This document shows positions 9,861 through 37,504 of a stretch of 64,000 bases of DNA, in pieces (positions within the stretch are counted from its first letter, which is position 1; every line of letters starts with the position of its first letter). This DNA is from Actinomycetota bacterium (GTDB lineage Bacteria > Actinomycetota > Thermoleophilia > Gaiellales > Gaiellaceae). Position numbers and translations under genes: made by a program. The DNA is taken from contig VAWW01000013.1 in NCBI GenBank assembly GCA_005884575.1, positions 62,001 through 126,000 of the forward strand. The letters run 5' to 3'. The notes below the pieces were generated by a model that was not told where the DNA came from, searched no databases, and worked only from the letters and a program-made list of their open reading frames with translations.

Positions 9861-10883
<1,023 letters not shown>

Positions 10884-19024: not shown

Positions 19025-19028
<4 letters not shown>

Positions 19029-20179
19029 CGCAGCTCGAAGCGGGTGGGCGCCGTCGCGGCCGGCGGCGGCAGCTCGAGCGGCGCGGCGCCCGGAACGATC
19101 GCGCCGAGGATCACTGCGCGCGACGCGCCGGTGCAGCTCGGGATCGCACCGGCGAGGCCGTTCGCGGTCAGGAACCCGATCAGCGCGATCATCAGCGCCT
19201 CCTTCGCCTCGGACGGGACGCCGAGCTCGTCCACGGTGCGGAGCTCGACATCGGGGAGCCGCTCGCGGAGCCCGTCCATGATCGCGACGTTCTGCGTCCC
19301 TCCGCCCGAGGCGATCACCGTCTCGACGCCGTGCCGGACGAGCTCGCGCGCGACGGTCTCCACGGTCAGCGAGGCGAGTGTCGCGAGCAGGTCGTCGCCC
19401 GTCCGCTCTGCGTGTGCGCGCAGGTAGGCGGCGTTGAAGAGCTCCTTGCCCGTCGACTTCGGCGCCGCGAGCGCGTAGAACGGCTCGGCGAGCAGGCGGT
19501 CGAGGAGCGCCTCGTCGACCGCGCCGCGGGCGGAGCGCTCGCCGCCGCGGTCGTACGACAGCTCCCCGTTCGTCGCGGCCAGCATCGCGGCGTCGAGCAG
19601 CGCGTTCGCCGGCCCCGTGTCGTACGCGATCGGCTCCGCGCTCGGGCGGACGACGGTGATGTTCGCGATCCCGCCGAGGTTCAGCGCGGCGGCGGTTCGG
19701 GACGAGCCGCTGAGCAGCAGGACGTCGAAGATGCTTGCGAGCGGTGCGCCGTGCCCGCCGGCCGCGATGTCGCGGATGCGGAGGTCGGCGACGACCGGCA
19801 AGCCGGTCCGGTCGGCGATCCACGCGGGCTGGCCGAGCTGAAGCGTGCCGCGCGCCGTTGGCCCGTCGACCCAGTGGTACACGGTCTGCCCGTGCGAGGC
19901 GACGAGATCGGCCGCGCCGTCCGGGAGGCGGGTGAGCAGCTCGGTGGCGGCCTCGGCGAACGCCCGGCCGATCTCGGTGTCGAGCTTGCAGACCTCCTCG
20001 ATCGTCGTCTGCGCCGGCGGAAGGGCGTCGACGAGCCGGCTGCGCAGCTCCGGCGCATAGGGCGTGCTGCTCTTGGCCAGCAGCTTGGCGGAGACGACCT
20101 CACCGTCCAGCTCGAAGTCGGCGGCCGCGGCTTCGATCGCGTCGTGCGAAGTACCGGAGATCAGACCGAGCACCCTCAT
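19025..20179 (-). CDS. anmK: Anhydro-N-acetylmuramic acid kinase
   Basis: A 384-residue ASKHA-fold kinase that opens the 1,6-anhydro ring of anhydroMurNAc while phosphorylating it to MurNAc-6-phosphate with ATP. Visible are the ATP loop GLISGTSHDAIEAA at the N terminus, SHGQTVYHW (about 95-103), the catalytic-region loop PVVADLRIRDIAAGGHGAPLA, LNLGGIANITV, DTGPANALLD and the C-terminal ASGGGTQN. It acts just before MurQ in the peptidoglycan-sugar route. Its ATG overlaps the murQ stop (ATGA). Its presence implies that lytic-transglycosylase products (1,6-anhydro muropeptides or the free sugar) reach the cytoplasm. Confidence 0.93.
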
Positions 20180-21066
20180 GTGAGCGCCCTGCGCAAGTCA
20201 CGGCCGCAGGCCTCGAGCCGTTCGCGCGCGTCGCGGGCGTCGAGGCCGCTCAGGAGCATCACGATCGCCGTCTTCGCATCGCCGTCGGCGGCGGCGAGCG
20301 CCGCTTCCGCGTCGGCCGGCGCGGCGTCCGCGGCCTGCGCGACGATGCGCACCGCTCGCGCGCGCAGCTTCTCGTTCGTCGCGCGGACGTCGACCATCAG
20401 GTTGCCGAACGTCTTGCCGACCTTCACCATCGCGATCGTCGAGAGCATGTTCAGGACGAGCTTCTGCGCCGTCGCCGCCTTCAGGCGCGTCGAGCCGGCG
20501 ATGAACTCCGGCCCGACCACCACCTCGATCGGGATGTCCACCGCGGAGCTGAGCGGTGCTTCCTCGTTGCACGCGAGCCCGACGACGACGGCGCCCCGCG
20601 CGCGTGCGTGCGCGGCGGCGCCGAGCACGTACGGCGTGCGGCCGCTCGCCGAGATCGCGACGACTGCGTCGTCCGGGCCGACGCCGAGCCGCTCGAGGTC
20701 GTGCGCGCCCGCGTCGGCATCGTCCTCCGCGCCCTCCTGCGCGTCGGCGAACGCCTGCGTCCCGCCGGCCATCACGGCGACCACGCGATCCGTGTCGAAG
20801 GTGGGGCCGCATTCGGCCGCGTCGAGGATCCCGAGCCGTCCCGCGGTGCCGGCGCCGACGTAGACGAGCCGGCCGCCGCGCGCGAGCCGCTCAGCGACCG
20901 CGTCGACGGCGGCCGCGATCGAGGACGCGGCGGCGGCGACCGCGGCGGGGACGCGCGCGTCCTCGTCGTTCATCAACCGGACGAGGTCGGCGGTCGGCGC
21001 GCGGTCGATCTCCTTCAGCTCGGGGCGCACCGCCTCGGTGACGAGCTGATCGAAGCGCTCAGTCAT
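20176..21066 (-). CDS. murQ: N-acetylmuramic acid 6-phosphate etherase
   Basis: A 296-residue SIS-fold enzyme that cleaves the D-lactyl ether of MurNAc-6-phosphate to give GlcNAc-6-phosphate and D-lactate. Visible are VYVGAGTAGRLGILDAAECGPTF (about 69-91) with the catalytic Glu in DAAEC, VVAISASGRTPYVLGA (sugar-phosphate loop) and the C-terminal VDVRATNEKLRARA. Length matches the family. The ATG at 21066 overlaps the oppC stop by 8 bp. It sits between the transporter permeases and anmK, so the pathway order AnmK, MurQ, NagA is encoded on one message with its importer. Confidence 0.94.
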   Translation of the reverse strand: MTERFDQLVTEAVRPELKEIDRAPTADLVRLMNDEDARVPAAVAAAASSIAAAVDAVAERLARGGRLVYVGAGTAGRLGILDAAECGPTFDTDRVVAVMAGGTQAFADAQEGAEDDADAGAHDLERLGVGPDDAVVAISASGRTPYVLGAAAHARARGAVVVGLACNEEAPLSSAVDIPIEVVVGPEFIAGSTRLKAATAQKLVLNMLSTIAMVKVGKTFGNLMVDVRATNEKLRARAVRIVAQAADAAPADAEAALAAADGDAKTAIVMLLSGLDARDARERLEACGRDLRRALT

Positions 21067-21937
21067 TGCGCCGGGTTGGATCGAGGGCGTCGCGCAGGCC
21101 GTCGCCGAGCAGGTTGAGCCCGACGACGGCGAGCGTGATGAACACCGCCGGCCCGGCGAGCGTCCACCACGCAGTCGCGGCGAGCGCGCGGGCATCGCTC
21201 ACCATCAGTCCGAGCGACGCCTCCGGCGGTTGCGTGCCGAGGCCGAGGAAGCTGAGGCCCGACTCGGTGAGGATCGCCCACGACAGCGAGAGCGTCACCT
21301 GGACGATCACCGGCGAGGCCACGTTCGGGACGATGTGACGGAAGAGCAGGCGCGGCGACGAGAAGCCGAGCACGCGCCCGGCGCGGATGAAGTCGGCATC
21401 CTGGAGGGCGAGCACCGGGCCGCGCGCGACCCGCGCGAAGATCGGCACGTAGACGATGGCGATCGCGATCGCCGTGTTGAACCAGCCGGAGCCGAGCGCG
21501 CTGACGATCGCGAGCGCGAGCAGGATCGCCGGGAACGCGAAGAGCACGTCGCTGACGCGCATCACGATCGCGTCGACCCAGCCGCCGAAGAAGCCGGCCG
21601 CGACTCCGGCGACCGTCCCGATCGTCCCCGCGATCGCGACGGAGACGAGCGCGACCTGGAGCGACGCCTTCACGCCCTCGACGCAGCGCGAGAAGATGTC
21701 GCGGCCGAACTGGTCGGTGCCGAGCCGGTACTTCGACGAGGGCCCGAGCAGCCGGTCGAGCGGATGCTGCGACACCGGGTCGTACGGCAGCACGTGGACG
21801 AGCGCCGCGAACGCGCCCACGAGCAGGAGCGCCGTGATCACGGCGCCGATCCGGCCGCTCGGGCTACGGAGCAGGCGCGCGGCCCAGCCGCTGCGGGCCG
21901 CTCCGGCAACGGGCAGCTCGAGGACGGTCTCGGTCAC
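21059..21937 (-). CDS. ABC transporter permease, OppC type (muropeptide operon)
   Basis: A 292-residue permease. GTG at 21937 (GTGA overlap with oppB) gives the N terminus MTETVLELPVAGAARSGWAARLL, then a membrane helix (RIGAVITALLLVGAFAALVHVLPYDP is the region), the OppC motif GTDQFGRDIFSR and five further helices. The coupling loop is DFIRAGRVLGFSSPRLLFRHIVPN and the C terminus LLGDGLRDALDPTRRND. The opening TExxxELP resembles that of the upstream OppB protein, which helps fix both starts. Confidence 0.9.
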   Translation of the reverse strand: MTETVLELPVAGAARSGWAARLLRSPSGRIGAVITALLLVGAFAALVHVLPYDPVSQHPLDRLLGPSSKYRLGTDQFGRDIFSRCVEGVKASLQVALVSVAIAGTIGTVAGVAAGFFGGWVDAIVMRVSDVLFAFPAILLALAIVSALGSGWFNTAIAIAIVYVPIFARVARGPVLALQDADFIRAGRVLGFSSPRLLFRHIVPNVASPVIVQVTLSLSWAILTESGLSFLGLGTQPPEASLGLMVSDARALAATAWWTLAGPAVFITLAVVGLNLLGDGLRDALDPTRRND

Positions 21938-22968
21938 AGCTCGCGCACCCGCGGGTCGATGCGGCGGTAGAGCAGGTCGGTCAGGAAGTTGACGAGCACG
22001 AAGGCCGCCGCGATCACGAGCACCGTGCTCTGCACGACCGCGTACTCCCGCTCGCCGATCGCGCTCAGCACCTGCCGGCCGAGCCCGGGCAGCGCGAAGA
22101 TCTGCTCGACGATCACCGCGCCGCCGAGCAGGTAGCCGAACTGAATGCCGACGATCGTGACGATCGGGATCAGCGCGTTGTGCAGCACGTGCCGGATCGC
22201 GATGCGGCGCGGATCGAGTCCCTTGCCGCGCGCGGTGCGAACGAAGTCGCGGCTCGACACCTCGATCACCGCCGAGCGCGTCGTCCGCATCACCGGCGCC
22301 GCGAGCCCGAAGCCGAGCACCGCGGCCGGGAAGATCATCTGCTGGAAGTTCGTCCACGGGTCGTCCCACGGCGTCCGGTAGTCCCCGCCGTTCGGGAAGT
22401 AGTTGAACTTCGTCGCGACGATCGTGACGACGGCCGTCGCGAGGACGAAGCTCGGCACCGACAGGCCGAGCAGGCCGATCGACTGGCCCGTCGTGTCGCG
22501 GATCCCGTTCGGCCGCGACGCGGCGAGCGTGCCGAGGAGCACGCCGGCGATCGAGCCGAAGATCGTGGAGAGCAGCGCCAGCTCCACGGTCACCGGCAGC
22601 GCCGACCGCGTCATCGACGAGACCGAGGCGCCGGTCGAGAGCGAGATCCCGAGGTTCCCCTGCAGGACGCTCCAGATCCACGAGAAGTACTGCCGCCACA
22701 GCGGCTGGTCGATCCCGTAGTAGTGCTCCAGCGCGACCTTCTGCGCGTGATTAAGCACGCCAGTCTCGGTGCCGAACTGGGCGTTGATCGCGTTGCCCGG
22801 AACGACGCGCAGGACGATGAAGACGAGGATCGAGACGCCGACGAGCGTCAGCAGCGATCCGAGCAGGCGGCGCAGGAGCCGGTGGCGGTAGAGGCGCGCG
22901 GTCCAGCCGACGCGCGGTCGGTCCTCGTCCAGCAGGAGCGCGGGGAGTTCGATGATCGGTTCGGTCAA
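21934..22968 (-). CDS. ABC transporter permease, OppB type (muropeptide operon)
   Basis: A 344-residue permease with the OppB arrangement: membrane helix RRLLGSLLTLVGVSILVFIVLRVVPGNA, an extracytoplasmic domain, then five helices with coupling loop DFVRTARGKGLDPRRIAIRHVLHNAL and end LLYRRIDPRVREL. I prefer the TTG at 22968 because the product then begins MTEPIIELP, matching the N terminus of the partner OppC protein. A GTG at 23019 would add 17 residues and lies 12 bp after the binding-protein stop. Neither has a strong ribosome site. Confidence 0.87.
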   Translation of the reverse strand: MTEPIIELPALLLDEDRPRVGWTARLYRHRLLRRLLGSLLTLVGVSILVFIVLRVVPGNAINAQFGTETGVLNHAQKVALEHYYGIDQPLWRQYFSWIWSVLQGNLGISLSTGASVSSMTRSALPVTVELALLSTIFGSIAGVLLGTLAASRPNGIRDTTGQSIGLLGLSVPSFVLATAVVTIVATKFNYFPNGGDYRTPWDDPWTNFQQMIFPAAVLGFGLAAPVMRTTRSAVIEVSSRDFVRTARGKGLDPRRIAIRHVLHNALIPIVTIVGIQFGYLLGGAVIVEQIFALPGLGRQVLSAIGEREYAVVQSTVLVIAAAFVLVNFLTDLLYRRIDPRVREL

Positions 22969-23031
22969 GGAGCGCCTGGCACCGTACGTGCCGGAGCCGC
23001 GCCGCGGCGGCCCCGGCACGAAGCGGGACGT

Positions 23032-24576
23032 CTACGAGAGCGAGGTCTGCCGGAGGTATTGCAGCGAGCCGTTCGGCATCGGGACGAAGCCGTGGACCTT
23101 GCTCGTCGTCACGCGGTAGTCGTAGGAGCTGAACAGCCACACCCAAGCCGCCTGGCCCTCGAGCAGCTTCGTGATGTTCCGGTAGACGGCCTTCCGCTGC
23201 TTCACGTTGTCCGTCGCGCGACCCTGTGCGAACAGCTGGTCGAGCTTCGGCGACGAGAAGCCGGCAACCTTGTTGAGGCTCCCCGTGGAGGTGAAATAGC
23301 GGTTGTACATCGTGTCCGGATCGACGCGGCCGCCGTTCAGGGCGATCGCGGCGTCGAAGTCCGCCGCCAGCCAGCGCTTGACGTACGTGCCGGCGTCGAG
23401 CACCTGCAGGTCGAGATTGATCCCGACCTTCTTCAGCTGCGCCTGCGCGCTCTGCGCCTCGTTGACGGCCGTCGCGTACTCGCCGGTCTCGACGATCGTC
23501 TGGATCGTGAAGCCTTCCGGCATCCCTGCGGCTTTCAGGAACCGCTTCGCCTTGGCGAGGTTCGGTGTCGGACAGGGACGGTCGGCGTTCGGGTTCGAGC
23601 GGTAGGCGGGGCTGGTGATCGGGCCGATCACGCTGCCCTCGCCGAGCGCGGCCGAGTCGAGCACTTCCTTCCGGTTGAGCGTGCACTGGATCGCGAGCCG
23701 CGCGAACTGCTTCGTGAGCGGCCCGCGGCGGGCATTTAGCTGGAGCACGTGGTAGTTGAGCGACGGCGTCCGGTAGACCTTCAAGCCGCCGCCCTTCACC
23801 TGGCGCGCGACGAGCGGGTCGCTGATCAGGCCGAGCTGCACCTGGTTCGCGCGCAGGGCCGAGACGATCGAGCTCTCGTCGGGGATGATCCGGAACTGCA
23901 CCTGAGCGAGTTTCACGGGCTTGCCGTAGTAGCGCGTGTTGGCAGAGAGGTCGAGCGACTGGCCGGGCGTCCACTTGTCGAACTTGAACGGGCCCGTGCC
24001 GTTCGGATTCTTGATGAACGACCCCGACGCGACATCCGCGCTCGAGAGGATCGCGGTGTTGATGTCGGCGAGTGCGGCGAGGATCGGCACGTCCGGCGTG
24101 TTCATGTGCAGGACTACGGTCGTCGGCGCCGGCGTGTCGATGCTCGTGATGGGCGACAGGTTGGAACGCGCGACCGCGGCGGTGGCCGGGTCAAGGATCC
24201 GGTTCAGCGACGCCTTGACGTCGGTCGAGTCGAAACCCGCCCCGTTATGGAACTTGACGTTCTTGCGCAGCTGGAAGGTGAGCGTCTGCGCGCCGTCGGA
24301 GAACTTCCACGAGGTCGCGAGGTCGGGGACGATGTCGAGGCTCGACGTGAGCTGGACGAGCGTCCCGTAGATGAGCTGGAGCGTCTGGACCGACTGGAAC
24401 GCGGTCGCCTTGTGCGGGTCGAACTGGTCGATGTCGGCCGTGCGACCGACGACGAGCTTGCCGCTCGCCGACGAGGTTGCGACGCCTGCGGCCGACGATC
24501 CCACGAGCGCCGCGAAAACCGCGAGCGCCGGAGCGAGCGCGACGAGGGGCAGGCGGCGCAGACTACGCCGATGCAT
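23032..24576 (-). CDS. ABC substrate-binding protein, family 5 (muropeptide operon)
   Basis: A 514-residue solute-binding protein. The ATG at 24576 has GGAG 7 bases upstream and begins MHRRSLRRLPLVALAPALAVF, a Sec signal without lipobox cysteine. Visible features are GKLVVGRTADIDQFDPHKA, KFHNGAGFDSTDVKASLNRIL, NGTGPFKFDKW and C-terminal WVWLFSSYDYRV, all typical of SBP_bac_5. This family includes OppA, MppA (murein tripeptide) and chitooligosaccharide-binding proteins, so GlcNAc-MurNAc saccharides, anhydro-muropeptides or murein peptides are all possible. The following murQ, anmK and nagA favour a MurNAc-containing ligand. A DasR-like box lies 18-33 bp upstream of the start. Confidence 0.9.
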   Translation of the reverse strand: MHRRSLRRLPLVALAPALAVFAALVGSSAAGVATSSASGKLVVGRTADIDQFDPHKATAFQSVQTLQLIYGTLVQLTSSLDIVPDLATSWKFSDGAQTLTFQLRKNVKFHNGAGFDSTDVKASLNRILDPATAAVARSNLSPITSIDTPAPTTVVLHMNTPDVPILAALADINTAILSSADVASGSFIKNPNGTGPFKFDKWTPGQSLDLSANTRYYGKPVKLAQVQFRIIPDESSIVSALRANQVQLGLISDPLVARQVKGGGLKVYRTPSLNYHVLQLNARRGPLTKQFARLAIQCTLNRKEVLDSAALGEGSVIGPITSPAYRSNPNADRPCPTPNLAKAKRFLKAAGMPEGFTIQTIVETGEYATAVNEAQSAQAQLKKVGINLDLQVLDAGTYVKRWLAADFDAAIALNGGRVDPDTMYNRYFTSTGSLNKVAGFSSPKLDQLFAQGRATDNVKQRKAVYRNITKLLEGQAAWVWLFSSYDYRVTTSKVHGFVPMPNGSLQYLRQTSLS

Positions 24577-24593
24577 TGGACTCCTTTGTGACA

Positions 24594-24609
24594 AGTGGAC
24601 TAGACCAAT
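24594..24609. promoter_or_regulatory. DasR-like (dre) operator before the muropeptide operon
   Basis: AGTGGACTAGACCAAT differs at a single central base from the DasR core pattern TGGTCTAGACCA within AxTGGTCTAGACCAxT. It lies in the 70-bp spacer between the family 5 binding-protein gene and the divergent GNAT gene. Read in reverse (ATTGGTCTAGTCCACT) it shares ATTGGnnnAGnCCACT with the two sites at 34699 and 34730. A GntR/HutC-type regulator is encoded at 34765-35505. Confidence 0.72.
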
Positions 24610-25617: not shown

Positions 25618-25958
25618 GTCTCCTCAGGCGGCGAGGCCAACGCCGTGAGTGCCTCGCTCAGGGCGGCCTGTTGCGCGATCCGATCTTCGAGCGACAACTC
25701 CTCGTAGTCGCGCCGAAGCTCACGCACCGACGCGTTCGGCCGCGGTCCGGGCACGGCGGCGACCTCGAGGCGCTCGCCCATGACGGCGAGGAGGCGCTCC
25801 AGGGTCGAGACACTCGGCGAGACGACGCCGCGTTCGATCTTCGAGATCTGCCCCTGGCTCGTGCCGGCGCGGCGTGCCAGCGCCTCCTGGTTGAGCCCGT
25901 GCCGTACACGGGACTCTCGAACCAGCCTCGCCGCTCTCACGTGCCAATGATAGCTCAA
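25614..25958 (-). CDS. XRE-family helix-turn-helix regulator (probable antitoxin)
   Basis: A 114-residue protein with an N-terminal lambda-repressor-like HTH: RLVRESRVRHGLNQEALARRAGTSQGQISKIERGVVSPSVSTLERLLAVMG (about residues 10-60), followed by a charged helical tail that could bind the partner toxin. The TTG at 25958 is used here; a GTG at 25940 gives a protein six residues shorter that still contains the full HTH. The palindrome at 25948-25971 covers the TTG, which suits autorepression and leaves the later GTG possible. Confidence 0.78.
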   Translation of the reverse strand: MSYHWHVRAARLVRESRVRHGLNQEALARRAGTSQGQISKIERGVVSPSVSTLERLLAVMGERLEVAAVPGPRPNASVRELRRDYEELSLEDRIAQQAALSEALTALASPPEET

Positions 25959-27309: not shown

Positions 27310-28509
27310 ATGGACGAGCTTCTCGAGCTTCTGCCATCCCGAGCGTCAGCAGCGACCCGGCGCACGCCGTGGATCTCCGGCGCGCCGCCGAGTGGGTGAG
27401 CGCGTTCGTCGAGCGCGCGGGCGGCAGCGCGGCGATCACCGGCGGTCCGGGCGGCCGGTGGTGGACGCGCGCTTCGCGGCGGCCGACGGTGCACCGCGCG
27501 TCCTCTGTTACGGGCATTTCGACGTGCAGCCGCCGGAGCCGCTCGAGCTCTGGGACTCGCCGCCGTTCGAGCCGGAGGTGCGCGACGGCTGGCTCTACGC
27601 ACGCGGCGTCGCGGACGACAAGGGTCAGATCTGGATGCTGCTCGAGGCGGCGCGGCAGCTGGCGGCCGTGCTTCCAGTCGAGCTCCGGTTCCTGCTCGAC
27701 GGCGAGGAGGAGGTCGGCGAGACGACTGTGGCGGACCTGGTGGCTGCCGGTGACGTGCCGGCGGACGCGTGCGTCATCTTCGACTCGCGGATGCTCGGTC
27801 CGGGCAGGCCGGTGTTCAACCTCGCGACGCGCGGCACGGCGTACTTCCGCGTGCGCCTGCTCGCAGGCGAGCGCGATCTCCACTCGGGCGTCTTCGGCGG
27901 AGCCGCGCTGAACGCAGTCCATGCACTCGTGCGCACGCTCGACGCCGTGCTGCCGCGCGACGGTCGCTTGCCGGAAGCACTGCACAAAGGAGTCGAGCCG
28001 CCGGACCAGCCGAGCTCGCCGCCTGGCGCGAGCTCGAGCCCGGTGCATCGGTGCTGGCCGCCCAGGGCGCACGACCGGCAGACGAGCATGCCGCCGACGA
28101 GCTGTACGCGCGCACGTGGGCGCAGCTGTCGCTCGACGTGCACGCGCTCGCCGCAAGCGCGCCGCAGCTGATGAAGACGATCGTCCCCGCATCGGCGGAG
28201 GCGATGCTGTCGGTACGGCTTGCGCCGGGCCAGACGCTCGACGAGATCGTGCCGACGGTAGAGCGCCTGCTCCGCGAGGGCGCGCCGCCGGGCGCCGAGG
28301 TCGAGGTGACGCTGCTCGCCGGCTGCGATCCCGGCCGCTTCGACGCGGGCGCGTCCGCGATCGCGCTCGCGGCCGATGCGTCTTCGACCTCCCCGACGGC
28401 AACATTCATGCCCCCGAACGAGCGGCTGCGTGTCGAGCATCTTGACCTCGGAGTCGCCGCAGCGCGCGAGCTCTTCCGCGCCTGGGGCTCTCTCAGCGCG
28501 TCAGCGTGA
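27310..28509 (+). pseudogene. Decayed M20-family dipeptidase
   Basis: A paralogue of the divergent M20 gene, readable only across several frames. MDELLELL is followed by a 1-base loss near 27333, where the family has LAIPSVS. The frame then shifts near 27458 to PVVDARFAAADGAPRVLCYGHFDVQP, and again near 28005 to ELAAWRELEPG. About 37 codons are missing near 28380, where ALAADA runs straight into FDLPDGNIHAP. An extra C in a C-run near 28411 breaks APNERL. The zinc and lid segments (CYGHFDV, DGEEEVGE, RDLHSGVFGG) are still recognisable, so decay looks recent. Five lesions argue against simple sequencing error. Confidence 0.85.
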
Positions 28510-29530
28510 CCTTGCTCAGCCCATGCGGGTTGTCGAGGTCGGCGCCCCGGAGCTCGGCGAGGCGCATCGCTGCGATCTGGCCGGGGATCACGGCCGTCAG
28601 CGGGCTCACCCAGTCCGGCACCGCGCGGACGAGCCGGAGCGGCGTGGCGGCTCTGCCGAGGACGCGCTCGTCGTCCGCGATCGCGATCAGCCTCGCGCCA
28701 CGCTCCTGGAGCCGGTCGAGCGTCTCGTCGAGGCCGGCACGCGGCGGGCCCGTTGGCGCGACGACGATCACCGGCCAGCCTGGGCTGATCGCGGCGATCG
28801 GGCCGTGGAGGAGATCGGCAGCCGAGTACGCCTCGACGACGAGCCCCGAGAGCTCTCGGATCTTCAGCGCGATCTCGAACGACGTCGCGTAGTTCACGCC
28901 CCGCGCGACGACCGTGCCGCCCTCGACACGGGCATACGCATCGAGCGCAGGCGCGTCGGCGAACGAGCGCTCGAGCTGCTCGGCGATCCGTTCCGGCATC
29001 TGCTCGAGCTCGCGGAGCGCTGCGGCGTCCCGCGTCGAGGCCGCGAAGAGCAGGGCAACGGCACCGAGTGAGTTGAGGTACGTCTTCGTCGCCGCGACCG
29101 CGTGCTCCTCGCCCGCCTCGAGCGGGAGCACGAACTCGGCGACGCCGGCGAGCGGCGAGGACGGGTCGTTCGTCAGCGCGAGCGTCGGCCGGCCCTGGCG
29201 CGCGGCCTCCTCCACGACCGCGCGCACGTCCGGCGAGCCGCCCGACTGCGAGATCCCGATCACGAGTGCGCCCTCGAGCCGCGGCGGCTGCTCGTAGATC
29301 GTGTAGAGGGACGGCGTCGCGAACGCGACCGGAACGCGGTTCGCGCGGCCGAGCAGATACTGCGCGTACCGCGCCGCATTCGAGGAGCTGCCGCGCGACG
29401 CGATCATCACGTACTTGACGTCGGGGCGGCGGAAGAGCTGTCCGAGCTCCTTCGCGTGCTCGCGCTGGCGCTCGAGGAAGCGCGCGAGCGCGGCGGGCTG
29501 TTCCCTCAGCTCCGTCTCAAGCCAGGACAC
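28493..29530 (-). CDS. SIS-domain sugar-phosphate isomerase/deaminase (GlmS C-terminal/NagB-II type)
   Basis: A 345-residue protein with two SIS domains and no glutaminase domain, as in NagB-II and AgaS. First domain: VMIASRGSSSNAARYAQYLLG, VIGISQSGGSPDV (sugar-phosphate loop) and ATKTYLNSLG. Second: VVARGVNYATSFEIALKIRELSGLVVEAYSAADLLHGPIA, with the Glu of the isomerase site. The C terminus is DNPHGLSKVTLTR. It probably converts glucosamine-6-phosphate to fructose-6-phosphate and ammonia, taking over from the NagA product. The GTG start overlaps the second nagA by 14 bp. It ends the sugar-transport operon. Confidence 0.88.
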   Translation of the reverse strand: MSWLETELREQPAALARFLERQREHAKELGQLFRRPDVKYVMIASRGSSSNAARYAQYLLGRANRVPVAFATPSLYTIYEQPPRLEGALVIGISQSGGSPDVRAVVEEAARQGRPTLALTNDPSSPLAGVAEFVLPLEAGEEHAVAATKTYLNSLGAVALLFAASTRDAAALRELEQMPERIAEQLERSFADAPALDAYARVEGGTVVARGVNYATSFEIALKIRELSGLVVEAYSAADLLHGPIAAISPGWPVIVVAPTGPPRAGLDETLDRLQERGARLIAIADDERVLGRAATPLRLVRAVPDWVSPLTAVIPGQIAAMRLAELRGADLDNPHGLSKVTLTR

Positions 29531-30608
29531 GGGACTCTCCGGCGAGCACGACGCGCGTGATCTCCAGCCGGTCGTCGAGGACGACGACGTCGCCGCGACC
29601 GCCGGGAACGAGCACGCCGAGGTCCGGACGGCCGGCGATACGCGCAGGAACCGCCGTCGCAGCGCCGACGGCGTCGACGAGCGGCGCGCCGAGCGCGTGC
29701 AGGTTCCGGACGGCCTCGATCATCGTCAGGACGCTCCCCGCAAGCACGCCGTCGCGACGCCGCGCGGCGCCGTCCTGCACCTCGACCTCCACCGGGCCGA
29801 GCCGGTAGCGCCCGTCGCCGAGGCTCGCGCCCTCGCCCGCGTCTGTCACGAGCGCGAGCCGTCCCGCGGCGACGCGCCACGCCAGGCGCGCGGTCTCCGC
29901 CGCGAGGTGGTGGCCGTCGAGGATCAGCTGGACGTCGACGTCCTCACGCGCGAGGGCCGCGCCCGCGAGTCCGCCGTCGCGCGCCTGGATCGGGCGCATC
30001 GCGTTGAAGAGGTGCGTGACCGTTCGCACGCCGCGGTCGAACGCCGCGTTCGCCTCGTCGACCGTCGCGTCCGAATGACCGAGCGAGACGGCGACGCCGC
30101 GCGCGTGCAGCAGCTCGACGAGGTCGAGCGCTCCGGGGAGCTCGGGCGCCAGCGTCACGTGGCCGACGTCGCCGGCGGCGAGCAGCCGCCCGAGCAGCGC
30201 GGGATCGGGGTCGCGCCGGTGCTCGGGCGGATGAATGCCGAGCCGCTGCGGCGAGAGGAACGGCCCCTCGAGATGCACGCCGACGACGCGCGGCCCCGGC
30301 GCGGCGTTCGCGACCTCGGCGAGCGCGGCCGTCAGCTCCTCCTCGGGCGCGGTGATGAAGGTCGGCCGGAACGCGGTCACGCCCGTCTCGAGCAGTGCCT
30401 CCCCCGCGCGCGCGTACGCGCGGGCGTCCGCAGAAAGGAAGTCCACGCCGCCGAAGCCGTTCACGTGGAGGTCGACGAACCCGGGGACCGCGATGCCGCT
30501 GCCGCGCTTGCCGTTCCGCGCGCAGGCGACGATCGCGCCGTCCGCGATCTCGACGTCGCCCGCGACGAGCTCGCCCGCCACGATCGCCGCTTCGACGCCC
30601 AACCTCAT
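29517..30608 (-). CDS. nagA: N-acetylglucosamine-6-phosphate deacetylase (sugar-transporter operon copy)
   Basis: A 363-residue amidohydrolase, distinct in sequence from the NagA at 16052-17101. Motifs: [16 protein letters not shown], the metal Glu in [14 protein letters not shown], His in SLGHSDAT and [16 protein letters not shown], and the catalytic Asp in LVTDAGEGAS. The ATG at 30608 shares ATGA with the upstream TIM-barrel-like gene. Both NagA copies begin MRLGVEAA, pointing to duplication within the genome. Here it would act on GlcNAc-6-phosphate from sugars imported by MalEFG system 1. Confidence 0.92.
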   Translation of the reverse strand: MRLGVEAAIVAGELVAGDVEIADGAIVACARNGKRGSGIAVPGFVDLHVNGFGGVDFLSADARAYARAGEALLETGVTAFRPTFITAPEEELTAALAEVANAAPGPRVVGVHLEGPFLSPQRLGIHPPEHRRDPDPALLGRLLAAGDVGHVTLAPELPGALDLVELLHARGVAVSLGHSDATVDEANAAFDRGVRTVTHLFNAMRPIQARDGGLAGAALAREDVDVQLILDGHHLAAETARLAWRVAAGRLALVTDAGEGASLGDGRYRLGPVEVEVQDGAARRRDGVLAGSVLTMIEAVRNLHALGAPLVDAVGAATAVPARIAGRPDLGVLVPGGRGDVVVLDDRLEITRVVLAGESRVLA

Positions 30609-31591
30609 GTCGGGCTCCCGACACCGGCGAGCCCCGCGCTGACGGCTTCCCACACGAGCGGCGCGTCGGGCGTCGCGAGCTTCGACATGTGGCCGCAGGC
30701 CTCGTAGCCCCACGTCCAGAGCCTCTCGATCCCCTCGGCGCGCGCGGCAGCGATCACCGCCTCGAGGTCGGGGATGTCCTCGCGGGTCAGGCCGAAGCTC
30801 GGCAGCCACAGCTCGGCACCGACCCCGGCACGGTCGGCGGTCTCCCGCAGCAACCGCGCGAAGCGGCCGACGAACGGCCCCGCCGGCTCGTCGAAGTTCT
30901 TCCAGTACGGATCGGTCGCGAGTGTGTCCAGTCCCGGCAACGCTGCGACCGCGTCCCAGTCGGACACGCCGTGCGCGCCCTCAGTCAGCGGCAGCAGGCA
31001 GACCGTCGACCGGCCGCCGCGCTCTGCGACTTGGCCCACGAGCTCGCGGAGGAAGTCGACGACCGACGCCTCCCGGAACGCGAGCACCTCCGGCGTCAGC
31101 TCGCGCGGGAGCTCGCCCCCGAAGCGCTCGGCACATGCATCGCACCGGCAGGCCCAGCGGGCCGGCTCGTCGATGCCGACGTGCTCGGGCACCGTCCAGT
31201 GGGGCTCGTCCCAGAACACGCGGTCGGCCCCCGCATCCACCACGGCGTCCGCCCACTCGCGGCAGAACGCCCGGTAGGCGGGTCGGTTCAGGCAGCCGGT
31301 CGGAACGTGGCACCCGTCGTCCAGCACCTGGCACGCCTCGGGGTGGAAGCCGACCCAGCGGCTCTCGGCCTCGCCGCCGAACGTGCGCCCCACGCCCCAC
31401 GGGCACATCTGCACCTCGAGCCCGGCCCCATGCGAGAGCTCGACGATCCGCTGCATCGTGGCGCGGTAGTACGCGAGGTCGTTCTCCGAGAACGTGTGCA
31501 GCACGCCGGTGTAGCCGCGCCGGGCGAGGTCGCGCATGTCCTCCTCCACGTGCCGAGGGATGCGCACGCCGAAGTACGAGCAGCCGGTCAT
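30605..31591 (-). CDS. Uncharacterised TIM-barrel glycoside-hydrolase-like protein with CxCxxC motif
   Basis: A 328-residue soluble protein (no signal peptide), starting MTGCSYFGVRIPRHVEEDMRDLARRGYTGVLHTFSEND. Repeating strand-like segments (GVLHTF, VQMCPWGVG, RVFWDEPHW, STVCLLPLT, LATDPYW, ELWLPSFG, RLWTWGYEA) spaced by helices suggest a TIM barrel. VFWDEPHW (about 145-152) is a plausible acid/base site. ACRCDACAERFGG soon after resembles the Cys motif of putative glycosyl hydrolases related to GH42/DUF4838-type proteins. It lies between the MalG-type permease and nagA with 4-bp overlaps on both sides, so it probably processes the imported sugar in the cytoplasm. I cannot name a family. Confidence 0.75.
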   Translation of the reverse strand: MTGCSYFGVRIPRHVEEDMRDLARRGYTGVLHTFSENDLAYYRATMQRIVELSHGAGLEVQMCPWGVGRTFGGEAESRWVGFHPEACQVLDDGCHVPTGCLNRPAYRAFCREWADAVVDAGADRVFWDEPHWTVPEHVGIDEPARWACRCDACAERFGGELPRELTPEVLAFREASVVDFLRELVGQVAERGGRSTVCLLPLTEGAHGVSDWDAVAALPGLDTLATDPYWKNFDEPAGPFVGRFARLLRETADRAGVGAELWLPSFGLTREDIPDLEAVIAAARAEGIERLWTWGYEACGHMSKLATPDAPLVWEAVSAGLAGVGSPT

Positions 31592-32427
31592 CCCTTCACG
31601 CCGCCCGCAGTGAGCCCGAACGCGATCTTGCGGTGCACGATGACGAAGAAGGCGACGACCGGCAGCGCGGTCAGCGTCGCGCCGGCCATCAGCGAGCCCC
31701 ACGCCGTGCCGCGGTTCGTCGTGAAGTTCGCGAGCCAGACCGTCAGTGTCTGCTTCTCCGGGCTGGAGAGGAACACGTACGCGATGATGTACTCGTTCCA
31801 CGCCTGGATGAACGCGAAGATCGACGTCGCGACGAGTCCCGGCGCGACGAGCGGCAGGAGGATCCGCACGAACGCGCCGAAGCGCGAGCAGCCGTCGACG
31901 AGCGCCGCCTCCTCGAGCTCCTGTGGGATTCCCATCACGAACCCGCGCAGCGTCCAGATGCAGAACGGCAGGACGAACGTCAGGTACGCGACGACGACGC
32001 CCGTCAGCTTGTTCACCTGCGTGCCGCCCGGCGCGTTGCTGAACGCGATGTAGAGCGGGATGATCAGCGCGTTCAGCGGCACCATCTGGACGGCGATGAT
32101 CAGGACGATGAACGCCTTCCGGCCGTAGAAGCGGAAGCGCGCGAGCGCGAGCGCCGCGAGGAACGAGAGCACCGCGGAGAGGGCGACGACGACGCAGACG
32201 ACGAAGACGCTGTTCTTCACGTCCTGCCAGAAGTACGGCCGGTGGATCGCGTCCGTGAAGTTGCTCAGCGTCGCCGGGTGCGGGAACCACTTCGGCGTGA
32301 ACGTCTGCACGTCGATCCCCGGCTTGAACGCCGTCGACACCATCCAGTAGACCGGGAAGATCATGACGAGGAACACGAGGACGCCGGTCGTGTTCAGCGC
32401 GATCCGCTCCGCGCGCCGCCGGGTCAC
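31588..32427 (-). CDS. Carbohydrate ABC transporter permease, MalG type (sugar system 1)
   Basis: A 279-residue permease with six membrane helices. GTG at 32427 (GTGA overlap with the MalF-type gene) gives MTRRRAERIALNTTGVLVFLVMIFPVYWMVSTAFKP, the usual MalG opening. The coupling loop is IPQELEEAALVDGCSRFGAFVRILLPLVAPGLV, and the C terminus HRKIAFGLTAGGVKG matches the family tail. It forms the channel with the MalF-type subunit. No ATPase is encoded in this block; the MalK-type ATPase at 35533-36585 probably serves. Confidence 0.92.
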   Translation of the reverse strand: MTRRRAERIALNTTGVLVFLVMIFPVYWMVSTAFKPGIDVQTFTPKWFPHPATLSNFTDAIHRPYFWQDVKNSVFVVCVVVALSAVLSFLAALALARFRFYGRKAFIVLIIAVQMVPLNALIIPLYIAFSNAPGGTQVNKLTGVVVAYLTFVLPFCIWTLRGFVMGIPQELEEAALVDGCSRFGAFVRILLPLVAPGLVATSIFAFIQAWNEYIIAYVFLSSPEKQTLTVWLANFTTNRGTAWGSLMAGATLTALPVVAFFVIVHRKIAFGLTAGGVKG

Positions 32428-33380
32428 TCGGCCTCTCCCGCGCGCACCATCTGGCGGACGTAGAAGAAGCTGACGACGAGCATCACGAGCACCATCGTCA
32501 GCGCGATCGCCGAGCCGAGTCCGTACTCGCTGACGCGGAACGACTCGACGAACGAGTAGATGCTCATCAGGTAGTAGTCGTTCGTCGGCCGGCCGTCTCG
32601 CATGATCCACACCTGGTTGAAGACCTGGAAGTCCCAGATGATCGAGAGGCTGACGAGGATGATGAAGATCGGCTTCAGCAGCGGCATCGTCACGAACCGG
32701 AAGACCTGGACGAAGCTCGCGCCGTCGATCCGCGCAGCTTCGTGCAGTTCCTCCGGCACCTGCGACAGCGCCGCGTAGAGCGTGATCGCGACGAACGGGA
32801 TCGCGCCCCAGACGACGACCGCGGTGATCACGCCGAAGCCCGAGAGCGTGTTCGCGAACCAGTCGTGGTGGACGAAGTTGCCGGCGTGGAGCTTCGTCAG
32901 CGTCCAGTTGAGGACCCCGAACTCGTAGTCGACCATCCAGAGCCACACGTTTACGGAGACGACCACGGGCGTCGCCCAGACGAGCACGAGTCCCGTCGTC
33001 AGCAGCAGGCGCATGAAGGAGCCGAGACGCGCGAGCAGCAGCGCGATCAGCGTCCCGAAGAGCATCGTCAGCGAGACGTTCGCCGCCGTGAATGTGACAG
33101 TGCGCAGCAGCACGTGCCAGAACTGGCTGTCGTGCAGGATCCGCGTGTAGTTCGACAGGCCCGTCCACTCGCCGTGGTGCGTGAGCAGCTGGGGCAGGCC
33201 GTACTTCTGGAAAGAGAGCTGGACGAGCAGGTAGAGCGGATAGCCGAGCACCGCTCCGACGACGATCGTCGCCGGGGCCAGCAGCGCGTACGGCGCGGCG
33301 CCGCGCGTGAGACGGGCCCGCCGCCGAGCCGACAGGAGCGTCGGCTCGGCGGCTACGCGGAGGCCCGTTTCAGCGCTCAC
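32424..33380 (-). CDS. Carbohydrate ABC transporter permease, MalF type (sugar system 1)
   Basis: A 318-residue permease. GTG at 33380 shares GTGA with the binding-protein stop and gives MSAETGLRVAAEP before helix 1 (YALLAPATIVVGAVLGYPLYLLVQLSF). It has six helices with the coupling loop VPEELHEAARIDGASFVQVFRFVTMPLLKP. The start choice follows the overlap pattern of every gene in this operon. Substrate is inferred as an N-acetylated amino sugar from the nagA and SIS genes downstream. Confidence 0.92.
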   Translation of the reverse strand: MSAETGLRVAAEPTLLSARRRARLTRGAAPYALLAPATIVVGAVLGYPLYLLVQLSFQKYGLPQLLTHHGEWTGLSNYTRILHDSQFWHVLLRTVTFTAANVSLTMLFGTLIALLLARLGSFMRLLLTTGLVLVWATPVVVSVNVWLWMVDYEFGVLNWTLTKLHAGNFVHHDWFANTLSGFGVITAVVVWGAIPFVAITLYAALSQVPEELHEAARIDGASFVQVFRFVTMPLLKPIFIILVSLSIIWDFQVFNQVWIMRDGRPTNDYYLMSIYSFVESFRVSEYGLGSAIALTMVLVMLVVSFFYVRQMVRAGEAE

Positions 33381-34657
33381 GCGCTGGCGTTCAGGATGCT
33401 CGTTATCTGCTTGCTCGCCGCAGTGGTTGCAGCCTTCACGCTCTGCTTGCCCGTGAAGATGTTCACGAGCATGTTCTGCAAGACGTTCGCGTTCTCGACG
33501 TTCGCCCAGTTCGGCGTCACCGGAATGAACCAGGTGAACTTCGCCGCCTCGGCGAACGGTGCCAGCTTCGGATCGGCCGCGTTGACCTTCAGGAGGGTTG
33601 TCGTGTTCGGAATGTTCCCCGCCTTCGCGATCTGCGTCATCGCGCTCGTGCTGGTGAACGCCTTGATCCAGTCGGCGGCGAGATCCTTGTTCTTGCTCGT
33701 CACCGGAATGCCGAGATCGGAGCCGCCGAGGAACGTCGGCATGTAGCGGCCCTTGACGTGGCTCGGCATCGGGTAGGCGCCCATCACGTCGGCGAGGGCG
33801 GGATTGCCGACCTTCGGGTCGAGCGTGTACGGCCACTCCCAGCCGTTGCCGACGAACGACGCGACCTTGTCCTTGGCGAAGACGACGCTCGGGTACGGAT
33901 GCGACTCATCCGTCGTCAGGCTCGCGCGAGACGTCGACTTGACGATCGACTTGAGCGTCGTCAACGCGGTGATCGCCTGAGGGGAGTCCAGCGTCCCGAC
34001 CCACTTGCCTTTGCGCGTGGTCGCGATCTTGCCGCCCCAGTCATAGACGAACGCCATCGACGCGTACCAGTTCTTGCCGGGGAAGTAGAACGCCGAGAAG
34101 TTCGCGTCCTTCCCGTACTTCTTCATCAGCTTCTGGTTGTCCACGACGAACGCGCTCAGCGTCGTCGGCGTGCCCTTGATCCCCGCCTTCGCGTAGAAGT
34201 CCTTCCGGTAGATGACGGCCCGCGCGCCCGTGTAATACGGAACGCAGAAGAGCTTGCCCTGGTAGGTGCAGGAGTCCTTCAGACCTTTCAGCCACGTGCC
34301 TGAGTTGGGGAAGCTGCTCTTCTGCGCAGACAGGTCGGCGAACACGCCGTTCGCCATGTACTTGGTCGTCTCGGTGTTGCCGAGCTCGATCACGTCGGGG
34401 GCGTTGCCTCCGGCGATCGTCGCGTCGAACTTGGTCAGGTGGTCGGTCCATGTCTGGTAGTGGACGTCGACGTTCCCGCCGGGGTGCTCTTTCTGGAAGT
34501 CCTTCGTCGCCTGGGCGACGGTGTCCGCCCAGCCGTTCTGGGCGTCGTTCTGGAGCCACACGGTGATCGACGTCGCTTTCGACGCCCCGCTTGCAGTCGA
34601 CGCGGCAACCGCAAGCGCAACGGCGACGATCGTCGCCGCCACGAGACGAATCTTCAT
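33377..34657 (-). CDS. Carbohydrate ABC substrate-binding protein, family 1 (sugar system 1)
   Basis: A 426-residue extracellular binding protein. The ATG at 34657 has GGAGGTGG upstream and begins MKIRLVAATIVAVALAVAAS, a Sec signal without lipobox Cys. The mature protein has TSITVWLQNDAQNGW, HPGGNVDVHYQTWTDHLTKF, GGNAPDVIELGNTE and GGSDLGIPVTSKNKDLAADWIKAF, typical of the UgpB/MalE group. It is the first gene of an operon of six (SBP, MalF, MalG, TIM-barrel-like protein, NagA, SIS). Two tandem DasR-like boxes lie upstream, so induction by amino-sugar phosphates is likely. Confidence 0.92.
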   Translation of the reverse strand: MKIRLVAATIVAVALAVAASTASGASKATSITVWLQNDAQNGWADTVAQATKDFQKEHPGGNVDVHYQTWTDHLTKFDATIAGGNAPDVIELGNTETTKYMANGVFADLSAQKSSFPNSGTWLKGLKDSCTYQGKLFCVPYYTGARAVIYRKDFYAKAGIKGTPTTLSAFVVDNQKLMKKYGKDANFSAFYFPGKNWYASMAFVYDWGGKIATTRKGKWVGTLDSPQAITALTTLKSIVKSTSRASLTTDESHPYPSVVFAKDKVASFVGNGWEWPYTLDPKVGNPALADVMGAYPMPSHVKGRYMPTFLGGSDLGIPVTSKNKDLAADWIKAFTSTSAMTQIAKAGNIPNTTTLLKVNAADPKLAPFAEAAKFTWFIPVTPNWANVENANVLQNMLVNIFTGKQSVKAATTAASKQITSILNASA

Positions 34658-34698
34658 AGCGCCACCTCCCGGGCGGCGGCGGCCGCATGCGACCGCCG

Positions 34699-34764: not shown

Positions 34765-35505
34765 TCAGCCGATATTGATATGCGTTCTACGCCGTGTGGT
34801 CTGAGCCACATCGTGCGAGAGCTCGGCGATCAGCCGGTAGCGGTCGCCGCGGTAGAGGGAGCGCACGAACTCGACGATCTCGCCCGTGTCGGCGCGGCTC
34901 GTCCGCTCGAACAGGAAGGCCGGCGAGTGCAGGGGCACGTGCAGGAGCTCCGACTCCTCCTCGTTCGTCACCGTCGGCTCGATCGTCTGGACGCCGGACG
35001 CGACGACGACACCGTAGCGCGACGCGAGCAACTCGTAGAACGACGAGTCCTCGAGCTGGGTGCGCTTCAGGCCGGGCACGACCGCCGCCGGGACGTGCAG
35101 CGTCTCGAGCGCCATCGGCTCGTCGTCGGCGAGCCGGACGCGGCGAATCCGGACGACGCGGGCGTCCGGCGAGACGTGGAGCGCACGGCCGAGCGCCGGG
35201 CCCGCGTGGATCGTCTTCAGCTCGACCGCCCGGGCGCCGGGAACCATCCCGCGGCGGCGCATGTCGTCGCTGAAGGAGGTCAGCGTCAGCTGCTGCGCGA
35301 TCTTCGGCTCGCCGACGAAGGTGCCGCTGCCGTGCCGGCGCACGAGCAGACCCTCGCGCACGAGGTCGTCGAGCGCCGCGCGGATCGTCAGCCGCGAGAC
35401 GCCGAAGTCGGTGCTCAGCCGCCGTTCGGACGGGATCGAGTCGCCGATCTCGCGGGCTTCGATCAGCTCGAGCACGCGCTGGCGCGTGGCGTCCTGCTTG
35501 CTCAT
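34765..35505 (-). CDS. GntR/HutC-family transcriptional regulator (DasR-like)
   Basis: A 246-residue regulator. The N-terminal winged HTH is GDSIPSERRLSTDFGVSRLTIRAALDDLVREGLLVRRHGSGTFV (about residues 20-65). The C-terminal UTRA ligand domain includes RRRGMVPGARAVELK, VVRIRRVRLADDEPMALETLHVPAA and FLFERTSRADTGEIVEFVRSLYRGDRYRL. DasR/NagR proteins of this family sense GlcN-6-phosphate or GlcNAc-6-phosphate. ATG at 35505 is preferred; a TTG at 35520 would lie in the likely -10 (TTGAAT). Four DasR-like boxes in the window, one just upstream of this gene, make it the probable local regulator and self-regulator. Confidence 0.9.
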   Translation of the reverse strand: MSKQDATRQRVLELIEAREIGDSIPSERRLSTDFGVSRLTIRAALDDLVREGLLVRRHGSGTFVGEPKIAQQLTLTSFSDDMRRRGMVPGARAVELKTIHAGPALGRALHVSPDARVVRIRRVRLADDEPMALETLHVPAAVVPGLKRTQLEDSSFYELLASRYGVVVASGVQTIEPTVTNEEESELLHVPLHSPAFLFERTSRADTGEIVEFVRSLYRGDRYRLIAELSHDVAQTTRRRTHINIG

Positions 35506-35532
35506 GACCTGCGGATTCAAGCAGGGCGCCGG

Positions 35533-36585
35533 CTAGTGGTCAATACCACTAACGCGTTCGCCGCCCGCGTCGAACAGGTGCGCCTCCTCGGCCACCGGCC
35601 GCAGCGCCACGCGCTCGCCCCGCGCCGGCGCCCGCTTCGCTTCCGTGCGCGCGACGAGCCTCCCGAGCGCCGACGCGCAGAAGACGTACGCGTCGGCGCC
35701 GAGCTCCTCGACGACCTGCACCTCGGCAGGCAGCCCTTCGCCCGCGAGCTCGAGCGACTCGGGCCGCAAGCCGACGACGACCTCGCCGTTCCCTGCCGGA
35801 ACCGGAATCCGCGATCCACCGAACGAAACGGCCCCATTCGAGCACGGCAGCGTGCAGAGGTTCATTGCGGGCGAGCCGATGAACCCGGCGACGAAGGTGT
35901 TGACCGGCCGCTCGTAGAGGACGCGCGGCTCGTCGCACTGCTGCAGCCGCCCGTCCTTCATCACGGCGACGCGATCACCGAGCGTCATCGCTTCCGCCTG
36001 GTCGTGCGTCACGTAGACGGTCGTCGTCCCGAGCCGGTCCTGGAGCGCGGCGATGTCTGCGCGCATCTGGACGCGCAGCTTCGCGTCGAGGTTGGAGAGA
36101 GGCTCGTCCATCAGGAAGACGCTCGGCTCCCGGACGATCGCGCGTCCCATTGCGACGCGCTGGCGCTGGCCCCCGGAGAGCTGACCCGGCTTGCGCGCGA
36201 GGTAGTCGACGAGCCCGAGCAGCTCCGCCGCCTCACGGACGCGGCGCTCCCGCTCGCTCTTCTTGACGTGCGCGATCTTGAGGGGGAAGCCGATGTTCGC
36301 GGCGACGCTCAGGTACGGATAGAGCGCGTAGTTCTGGAAGACCATCGCGACGTCGCGCTCCTTCGCCGGCAGGTCGGTGACGTCGCGCCCGCCGATCAGG
36401 ACGGCGCCCGCGTCGACCTCCTCAAGACCCGCGAGCATCCGCAGCGCCGTCGTCTTGCCGGAGCCGGACGGGCCGACGAGCACCATGAACTCGCCGTCTG
36501 GGATCTCGAGCTCGAGCGCGTCGACCGCGGGCGCCTCAGTGCCCGGATAGATGCGCGTCGCGCGGTCGAAGCTGACGTCAGCCAC
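35533..36585 (-). CDS. Carbohydrate ABC transporter ATP-binding protein, MalK/MsiK/UgpC type
   Basis: A 350-residue ATPase. GTG at 36585 gives MADVSFDRATRIYPGTEAPAVDALEL; the start overlaps the kinase-gene stop by 8 bp. Walker A is GPSGSGKTTALRML, the Q-loop lies in MVFQNYALYPYLSV, signature [14 protein letters not shown], Walker B VFLMDEPLSNLDAKL, switch VTHDQAEAMTLGDRVAVM. The C-terminal regulatory/TOBE domain includes VNTFVAGFIGSPAMN and VVVGLRPESLEL. It is the only MalK-type ATPase in the window and is flanked by two MalEFG systems, so it probably energises both, as MsiK does in Streptomyces. Confidence 0.93.
   Translation of the reverse strand: MADVSFDRATRIYPGTEAPAVDALELEIPDGEFMVLVGPSGSGKTTALRMLAGLEEVDAGAVLIGGRDVTDLPAKERDVAMVFQNYALYPYLSVAANIGFPLKIAHVKKSERERRVREAAELLGLVDYLARKPGQLSGGQRQRVAMGRAIVREPSVFLMDEPLSNLDAKLRVQMRADIAALQDRLGTTTVYVTHDQAEAMTLGDRVAVMKDGRLQQCDEPRVLYERPVNTFVAGFIGSPAMNLCTLPCSNGAVSFGGSRIPVPAGNGEVVVGLRPESLELAGEGLPAEVQVVEELGADAYVFCASALGRLVARTEAKRAPARGERVALRPVAEEAHLFDAGGERVSGIDH
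35535..35550. promoter_or_regulatory. Palindromic DasR-like operator upstream of the GntR gene
   Basis: AGTGGT-CAAT-ACCACT has perfect 6-bp arms (7 with flanking T/A) and matches AGTGGTCTAGACCACT at 14 of 16 bases. It overlaps the last codons of the malK-type gene. On the minus strand it contains TTGACC, a possible -35, with TTGAAT 17 bases downstream as -10. Autoregulation of the GntR gene is the simplest reading. Confidence 0.65.
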
Positions 36586-37504
36586 GGCTCGTCCTCGCGA
36601 GCGTCGGCGTGCCGAGCTCGGCTCGGGCGCGGGCGAGTGCCTGGGGCCGTGCGCCGACCTCCTCCAGTGCGAGGAGCGCGACGCCGACGATCGGCGGTGC
36701 CTCGACGACTTGCAGACTGACCGACGGCGCGACCTCGCGCAGCTCGTGCTCGACCGCGCCGAGCAGCCCCGCGTCGCCCGACTGCAGCAGACCACCGCCG
36801 AGAACCACCTCGACGGGCTCCGCCGTCAGGTCGAGCCGGAGCAGCGCGACGCGCACGAGCGAGACGATCTCGCCCGCGAGCCGGTCGCGAAGCTCGGCCG
36901 CGACCGGATCGTCCGCCGCCTCGGCGAGCACGACCGGCGCGAGCTCGACGACGCGGCGCTCGGAGATCCGTCCGAAGTGGATCGCCTCGGCGAGCGCGCT
37001 CGGGGCCTCGAGGCCGAAGTGCTCCGGAACGGCGAGCTCGAGCGTCGTCGTCGGGCCGCGGCCGTCCTCGCTGCGCGCCGCGGCCGAGACCGCAGCCATG
37101 CCGACGTCGTAGCCGCCGCCCCAGTCCCCGCTCAGCTGCCCGAGCGAAGGGAAGCGCGCGTGGCGCCCATCCGGTGTGACGCCGACGCAGTTGATCCCGG
37201 CGCCGCAGGTGACGGCGACGCCCCACCCACGCTCGGTGCCCGCCCGGAGGATCGCGAACGTGTCGTTGTCGACGACGATCCGGCGGGCCCAGCCACGCGC
37301 GGCTGCGAGCCTCTCGAGCTGGTCGACCTCGGCCGGGAAGTCGACGCCGGCGAGCAGGAGCTCGGCGAGCTCGATCTCCGGTCGCTCCGCCGCGGCCTCG
37401 TCGAGCAGCGACTCGAGGATGTCGAGGCAGCGCTCCGCGCCGAGATGCTGCGGCGAGCTCGCGGGCCCGCGGGCGAGCGCGAGCACCTCGCCGTCCGACC
37501 GCAC
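36578..37504 (-). CDS. BadF/BadG-family (NAGK-like) sugar kinase, N-terminal phosphate loop lost
   Basis: A 308-residue ASKHA protein resembling N-acetylglucosamine kinase. Present are NDTFAILRAGTERGWGVAVTCGAGINCVGV (about 79-108), LGQLSGDWGGGYDVG and the C-terminal nucleotide motif VVLGGGLLQSGD. The first phosphate motif (DGGxxKT) is missing. An in-frame ATG at 37527, sharing ATGA with the MalG-type stop, encodes MIVLAVDG. The frame then jumps to VRSDGEVLALARG, so roughly nine codons are deleted together with a frame change. The longest intact frame restarts at GTG 37504. Without the ATP loop it is probably inactive. It lies between MalG and MalK genes, the expected place for the sugar's kinase. 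Confidence 0.8.
   Translation of the reverse strand: MRSDGEVLALARGPASSPQHLGAERCLDILESLLDEAAAERPEIELAELLLAGVDFPAEVDQLERLAAARGWARRIVVDNDTFAILRAGTERGWGVAVTCGAGINCVGVTPDGRHARFPSLGQLSGDWGGGYDVGMAAVSAAARSEDGRGPTTTLELAVPEHFGLEAPSALAEAIHFGRISERRVVELAPVVLAEAADDPVAAELRDRLAGEIVSLVRVALLRLDLTAEPVEVVLGGGLLQSGDAGLLGAVEHELREVAPSVSLQVVEAPPIVGVALLALEEVGARPQALARARAELGTPTLARTSRG

Follow-up and report, generated by a model that had tools for sequence, protein, structure and literature searches.

A gene for a 328-residue protein lies, in the 64,000-nucleotide stretch of DNA analysed here (the window), between genes for a sugar permease and for N-acetylglucosamine-6-phosphate deacetylase (NagA), and the question that it raises is which step, in which sugar pathway, such a protein would serve. 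A sequence-only reading had described a cytoplasmic TIM-barrel-like protein, related to GH42/DUF4838 and embedded in an amino-sugar transport operon, that would cleave an imported disaccharide or glycoside before NagA acts. The open reading frame (ATG to TGA, Table 1), both quoted sequence elements (VFWDEPHW and ACRCDACAERFGG) and the 4-bp overlaps with the MalG- and NagA-type genes are exactly as that reading gave them, save that the strand (minus) was missing; the start codon overlaps the MalG stop, and the stop codon the NagA start, as ATGA in both cases (31588-31591 and 30605-30608, respectively). Profile searches confirm the MalG-type, NagA-type and SIS-domain neighbours, and the barrel gene is present in single copy in the source genome.

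Table 1. Genes and residues discussed in the text, with their positions in the window.
Feature	Position	Strand	Basis
Unnamed barrel gene, 328 residues; predicted cytoplasmic glycosidase of an imported cell-wall disaccharide	30605..31591	-	reading frame, alignment, AlphaFold model
Invariant C100, aligned to first Cys of GH42 zinc cluster	31292..31294	-	alignment, hhalign
D128-E129-P130, end of beta-4, invariant 36/36; predicted acetamido-orienting Asp and acid/base Glu	31202..31210	-	alignment, model; role inferred
Invariant C148-x-C150-x-x-C153, aligned to GH42 zinc-cluster CxCxxC	31133..31150	-	alignment, hhalign
D227-P228-Y229, end of beta-6, invariant; D and Y common to GH42 WDxYP	30905..30913	-	alignment
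Residue 264 on beta-7, Pro here (family Pro 19 / Gln 17); approximate GH42 nucleophile Glu site by strand position	30800..30802	-	alignment
NagA, N-acetylglucosamine-6-phosphate deacetylase	29517..30608	-	TIGR00221 above cut-off
SIS-domain protein, NagB-II-like glucosamine-6-phosphate deaminase	28493..29530	-	best profile, under its cut-off
MalG-type ABC sugar permease	31588..32421	-	profile
MalF-type ABC sugar permease	32424..33320	-	
ABC sugar-binding protein (SBP_bac_1)	33377..34663	-	
GntR/UTRA regulator	34765..35520	-	
MsmK/MalK-type ABC ATPase	35533..36582	-	
BadF/BcrAD-type sugar kinase, candidate GlcNAc/MurNAc kinase	36578..37504	-	
Oligopeptide-type ABC transporter (permeases and substrate-binding protein), probable cell-wall peptide importer	21059..24594	-	sequence reading, not profile
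MurQ, N-acetylmuramic acid 6-phosphate etherase, separate gene, 10 kb downstream of barrel	20176..21066	-	above model cut-off
AnmK, anhydro-N-acetylmuramic acid kinase, 4-bp overlap with MurQ	19025..20179	-	above model cut-off
Second NagA	16052..17095	-	

The protein family and its predicted fold

Outside the source genome, relatives of the barrel protein are encoded at 39 loci, which belong to Thermoleophilia and other actinobacteria, to haloarchaea, Paenibacillus, Chloroflexi and Eisenbacteria, and to one bin labelled as Acidobacteriota. Identities to the window protein range from 29 to 76% and 25 columns are invariant across the 36 members aligned, and a chance open reading frame is thereby excluded. 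Searches of Pfam, NCBIfam and PDB sequences with the barrel protein gave no usable match, in keeping with the earlier remark that no family name fits, and the protein belongs to a family without a name in the libraries searched. The suggested relation to DUF4838 was rejected, there being no Pfam match for either the window protein (E up to 10) or the 36 members (E up to 0.1). Directly 3' of the Paenibacillus homologue (locus L034, 7346-9478) lies a gene for a 711-residue protein with a secreted-looking N-terminus and no Pfam match.

Structure prediction had been set beforehand as the test of the claim of a TIM barrel, and it bears the claim out. The AlphaFold2 model, computed from the 36-sequence alignment, is a full (beta/alpha)8 barrel whose eight strands and eight helices follow one another as a barrel requires (pLDDT 93.6, pTM 0.92), and inspection by eye revealed no signal-peptide-like N-terminus. 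Foldseek comparison of the model with the PDB returned 394 matches at E <=0.001, headed by GH14, GH35, GH5, GH42, ketose 3-epimerases and GH20, i.e. mainly glycosidases with epimerases interspersed, and comparison with BFVD returned generic barrels only. As query TM-scores extend to 0.67 at about 8-14% identity, the fold does not by itself specify the reaction.

Relation to GH42 and the putative active site

The likeness to GH42 noted from the sequence holds mainly for one part of the protein, the cysteine-containing stretch, and fails at the catalytic residues. In an hhalign comparison of the family with 17 GH42 domains the probability was 95.7% (P 1e-8, 195 columns), against at most 1.0% for column-shuffled controls and 0.3% for a reversed alignment. 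Four cysteines (C100, C148, C150 and C153) are invariant and align to the GH42 zinc cluster formed by Cys113/153/155/158 (PMC8573354), and from this alignment they are predicted to hold a structural zinc ion. Masking the Cys stretch lowered the hhalign probability to 8% with the register unchanged; common descent with GH42 is therefore likely, but the case for it lies mainly in this one stretch. The four-Cys zinc cluster is not universal in GH42.

The acid/base motif of GH42 at beta-4 is Asn-Glu-Tyr (NEY; PMC8573354). Its counterpart here reads D128-E129-P130 in 36 of 36 members, the two being equated because the model puts DEP where beta-4 ends, in a stretch that automatic alignments gap. No acid is conserved on beta-7 (residues 260-267), and the nucleophile Glu that GH42 carries on that strand is absent from all 36 aligned members. 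PF02449 is matched by two of the 36 members (best E 0.0017) and not by the window protein at E values up to 10. By the features tested the barrel protein is not a GH42 member, and plain membership of that family was accordingly rejected; with the beta-7 Glu missing and Asp standing for the Asn of NEY, the family has not kept the GH42 catalytic set and is unlikely to work by a plain GH42-type mechanism.

Conserved acids and aromatics at the strand ends (W65, W127, D128, E129, D227, Y229, W262 and W294), with positions taken from strand order in the model and not from superposition, are typical of sugar subsites. In GH123 an adjacent Asp-Glu pair has the Asp stabilising the 2-acetamido group and the Glu acting as acid/base (PMC11087588). 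Because the GH42-type nucleophile is missing, an N-acetyl substrate could supply its own acetamido group, and D128-E129 matches the GH123 pattern, we infer that catalysis may be substrate-assisted. A substrate with a 2-acetamido group is suggested by this adjacent pair closing beta-4: E129 would be the acid/base in its hydrolysis and D128 would orient the 2-acetamido group, replacing an enzymic nucleophile.

Genomic context and the fusion to MurQ

Of 38 relatives, 23 carry a MurNAc-6-phosphate etherase (MurQ) domain as an in-frame fusion to the barrel, and MurQ, fused or separate, is found at the locus in 26 of the 38; at one example locus (L002) the fused SIS domain scores 326 bits against the MurNAc-6-phosphate etherase subfamily model. 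AnmK, present at the loci of eight relatives, follows the fused gene at L019, L020, L022 and L023 and a separate neighbouring MurQ gene at L021, L026 and L030. Of the 38 loci, 29 include a MalF or MalG gene, the gene directly upstream of the barrel is usually MalG (GntR at eight loci), and most bacterial loci adjoin MurQ or NagA. A structural model of the barrel-MurQ fusion reached a pTM of 0.57, too low to place the two domains relative to each other. The fused-gene frames at L028 (1264-3111) and L001 (9986-11692) look broken or shifted, perhaps through assembly errors. No description of such a fusion was found in the open-licence papers searched.

The sequence-only reading had overlooked the separate MurQ and AnmK genes of the window, which together with NagA, each scoring over its model cut-off, constitute a peptidoglycan-sugar catabolic cluster. 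On the strength of the MurQ fusion, of AnmK at related loci and of these two genes 10 kb away, we assign the pathway to the scavenging of peptidoglycan sugars (MurNAc/GlcNAc) in place of generic GlcNAc uptake, so that the idea of an amino-sugar transport operon is retained as regards processing of an imported glycoside and revised as regards the sugars. More widely, positions 16052-43081 have the appearance of a cell-wall-sugar supercluster, with two NagA genes, AnmK, MurQ, an oligopeptide and two sugar ABC systems, M20- and M24-type peptidases, a BadF kinase and a ROK regulator, several of them named by sequence reading only. Small overlapping nucleotidyltransferase-like and HTH genes (25150-25958) look by eye like a possible toxin-antitoxin-like pair.

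In the barrel tree the window protein (support 81/84) and that of L012 branch inside the fused group, which suggests that an earlier MurQ fusion was lost or split there. Among 249 genomes of the class Thermoleophilia, MurQ was found in 13 of the 14 that encode the barrel versus 8 of the 235 that do not (Fisher P 1.7e-15, kinship not corrected), a P value that overstates independence because all barrel genomes of this survey fall in one family. It counts against the peptidoglycan-sugar reading that a search for MurQ drew a blank in the L012 and L018 genomes, in two genomes of Eisenbacteria and in one of Chloroflexota (L038). The source genome lacks both MupG and NamZ, in favour of that reading, but its single GH3 protein could be a source of NagZ-like activity, which counts against it.

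The haloarchaeal copies stand in at least two genomic contexts. On Haladaptatus and Halorussus plasmids the barrel gene belongs to a conserved cassette with RidA, glucose dehydrogenase, a PLP enzyme and an annotated glutamine amidotransferase, accompanied by a PIG-L deacetylase, an enolase-superfamily protein and an ABC transporter; part of this cassette is common to Halostella and Natronorubrum, and PIG-L deacetylases adjoin several haloarchaeal relatives. Acid-sugar genes (four-carbon acid sugar kinase, aldolase, Gfo/Idh) occur at some haloarchaeal loci, at two of which, both on plasmids, no amino-sugar genes are evident. The family may therefore not be restricted to 2-acetamido sugars and, given both amino-sugar and acid-sugar contexts, the substrate may differ between branches. 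MurQ was not found in the four haloarchaeal genomes tested, and haloarchaea in general are not known to make peptidoglycan. In Natronorubrum halalkaliphilum (L029, 11343-15364) genes for NamZ, a GH3 protein and AnmK lie in tandem within about 8 kb of the barrel gene, for which scavenging of bacterial walls is a possible role. The same locus (9023-10198) encodes a 392-residue protein without a Pfam match, the start of which is like that of a reading frame closing L032.

Proposed function, alternatives and known systems

Of the readings considered we judge the likeliest, and somewhat more probable than not, to be a cytoplasmic glycosidase of (beta/alpha)8-barrel fold that hydrolyses an imported cell-wall disaccharide, with location, glycosidase role and bond all predicted. 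In such a pathway the adjacent MalFG-type ABC transporter would import a peptidoglycan-derived disaccharide, which the barrel would split (GlcNAc-MurNAc, GlcNAc-anhydroMurNAc or MurNAc-GlcNAc); the BadF-type kinase and AnmK would phosphorylate the freed sugars, MurQ would take lactate off MurNAc-6P, and GlcNAc-6P would pass by way of NagA and the SIS deaminase to central metabolism. The wider proposal of a new GH family, in which a GH42-like zinc-cluster barrel has lost its nucleophile, acts with substrate assistance on 2-acetamido sugars and forms with MurQ a two-step disaccharide-breakdown enzyme, found also in haloarchaea, is put forward tentatively and may well not hold in full.

Since the fused partner MurQ uses MurNAc-6P, the most suitable product for an enzyme fused ahead of it would be that compound, and the barrel might act after phosphorylation, as a 6-phospho-N-acetylmuramidase or 6-phospho-disaccharide hydrolase handing MurNAc-6P to MurQ. 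It would then be a functional analogue of MupG, the 6-phospho-N-acetylmuramidase whose pairing with MurQ in the mupG-murQ genes of S. aureus is functionally the same (PMC6262408). However, the transporters at barrel loci are of the ABC type, which do not phosphorylate, and no sequence relation to MupG was detected (hhalign probability 1.2%, with two MupG sequences only), so that we regard this possibility as unlikely. MupG/DUF871 membership itself was rejected on that comparison and on the lack of any match to the MupG_N or MupG_C Pfam profiles for the window protein and the 36 members.

An improbable alternative is a sugar-modifying barrel of isomerase, epimerase or lyase type, i.e. not a hydrolase, acting on an imported amino sugar or acid sugar: ketose 3-epimerases score similarly in the Foldseek comparison, three of the 36 members weakly match a xylose-isomerase-like Pfam model (best E 0.0012) and the acid-sugar genes at haloarchaeal loci would suit such an activity, but the strand-end residues are W, D, E and Y, the aligned family shows no metal-binding His/Glu set conserved across beta-5 to beta-8, and the usual bacterial neighbours are MurQ or NagA. 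A non-catalytic sugar-sensing or scaffolding domain regulating MurQ or the transporter would accommodate both the loss of the GH42 nucleophile position and the occurrence of the barrel as a fusion partner, but is highly improbable given that D128, E129, D227 and the aromatics are invariant in 36 sequences down to 29% identity, and that the barrel gene occurs alone, without MurQ, in several lineages.

Cell-wall-sugar breakdown is poorly known in soil actinobacteria outside the studied groups and in some haloarchaea, and a family that no model in those libraries covers, but that gene fusion links to MurQ, provides a concrete enzyme to assay. Should the enzyme act in the proposed way, it would found a new glycoside hydrolase family, exemplify a GH42-like barrel with an altered catalytic mechanism and mark genomes capable of peptidoglycan scavenging.

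Among known systems, GH42 (PF02449) shares with the family the barrel, the CxCxxC-spaced four-Cys cluster, the beta-6 D-x-Y, a resembling stretch ahead of the first Cys and C-x-N-S-P-x-Y-R after it; in contrast, the family has DEP for NEY and no beta-7 nucleophile Glu, and at 328 residues the protein is too short for further domains. NagZ (GH3) and NamZ (DUF1343) release GlcNAc or MurNAc from cell-wall disaccharides, which is the pathway position proposed here, although the barrel family has no sequence match to either; nor would it be a simple substitute for them in N. halalkaliphilum, because enzymes of both kinds are encoded near its barrel gene. GH20 structures are among the fold matches (query TM up to 0.62), with an hhalign probability of 14% (5 sequences) and no GH20 Pfam match for the window protein. 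Similar to the GH123 beta-N-acetylgalactosaminidases, compared by motif alone, the family carries an adjacent Asp-Glu pair on a barrel, invariant here; unlike them, it gives no GH123 Pfam match (window protein and 36 members), and GH123 enzymes have additional domains. Finally, whilst MupG has no detectable sequence relation to the barrel and acts after PTS uptake, where the loci described here have ABC transporters, both would be cytoplasmic enzymes (by prediction in the present case) paired with MurQ in peptidoglycan-sugar recycling (PMC6262408).
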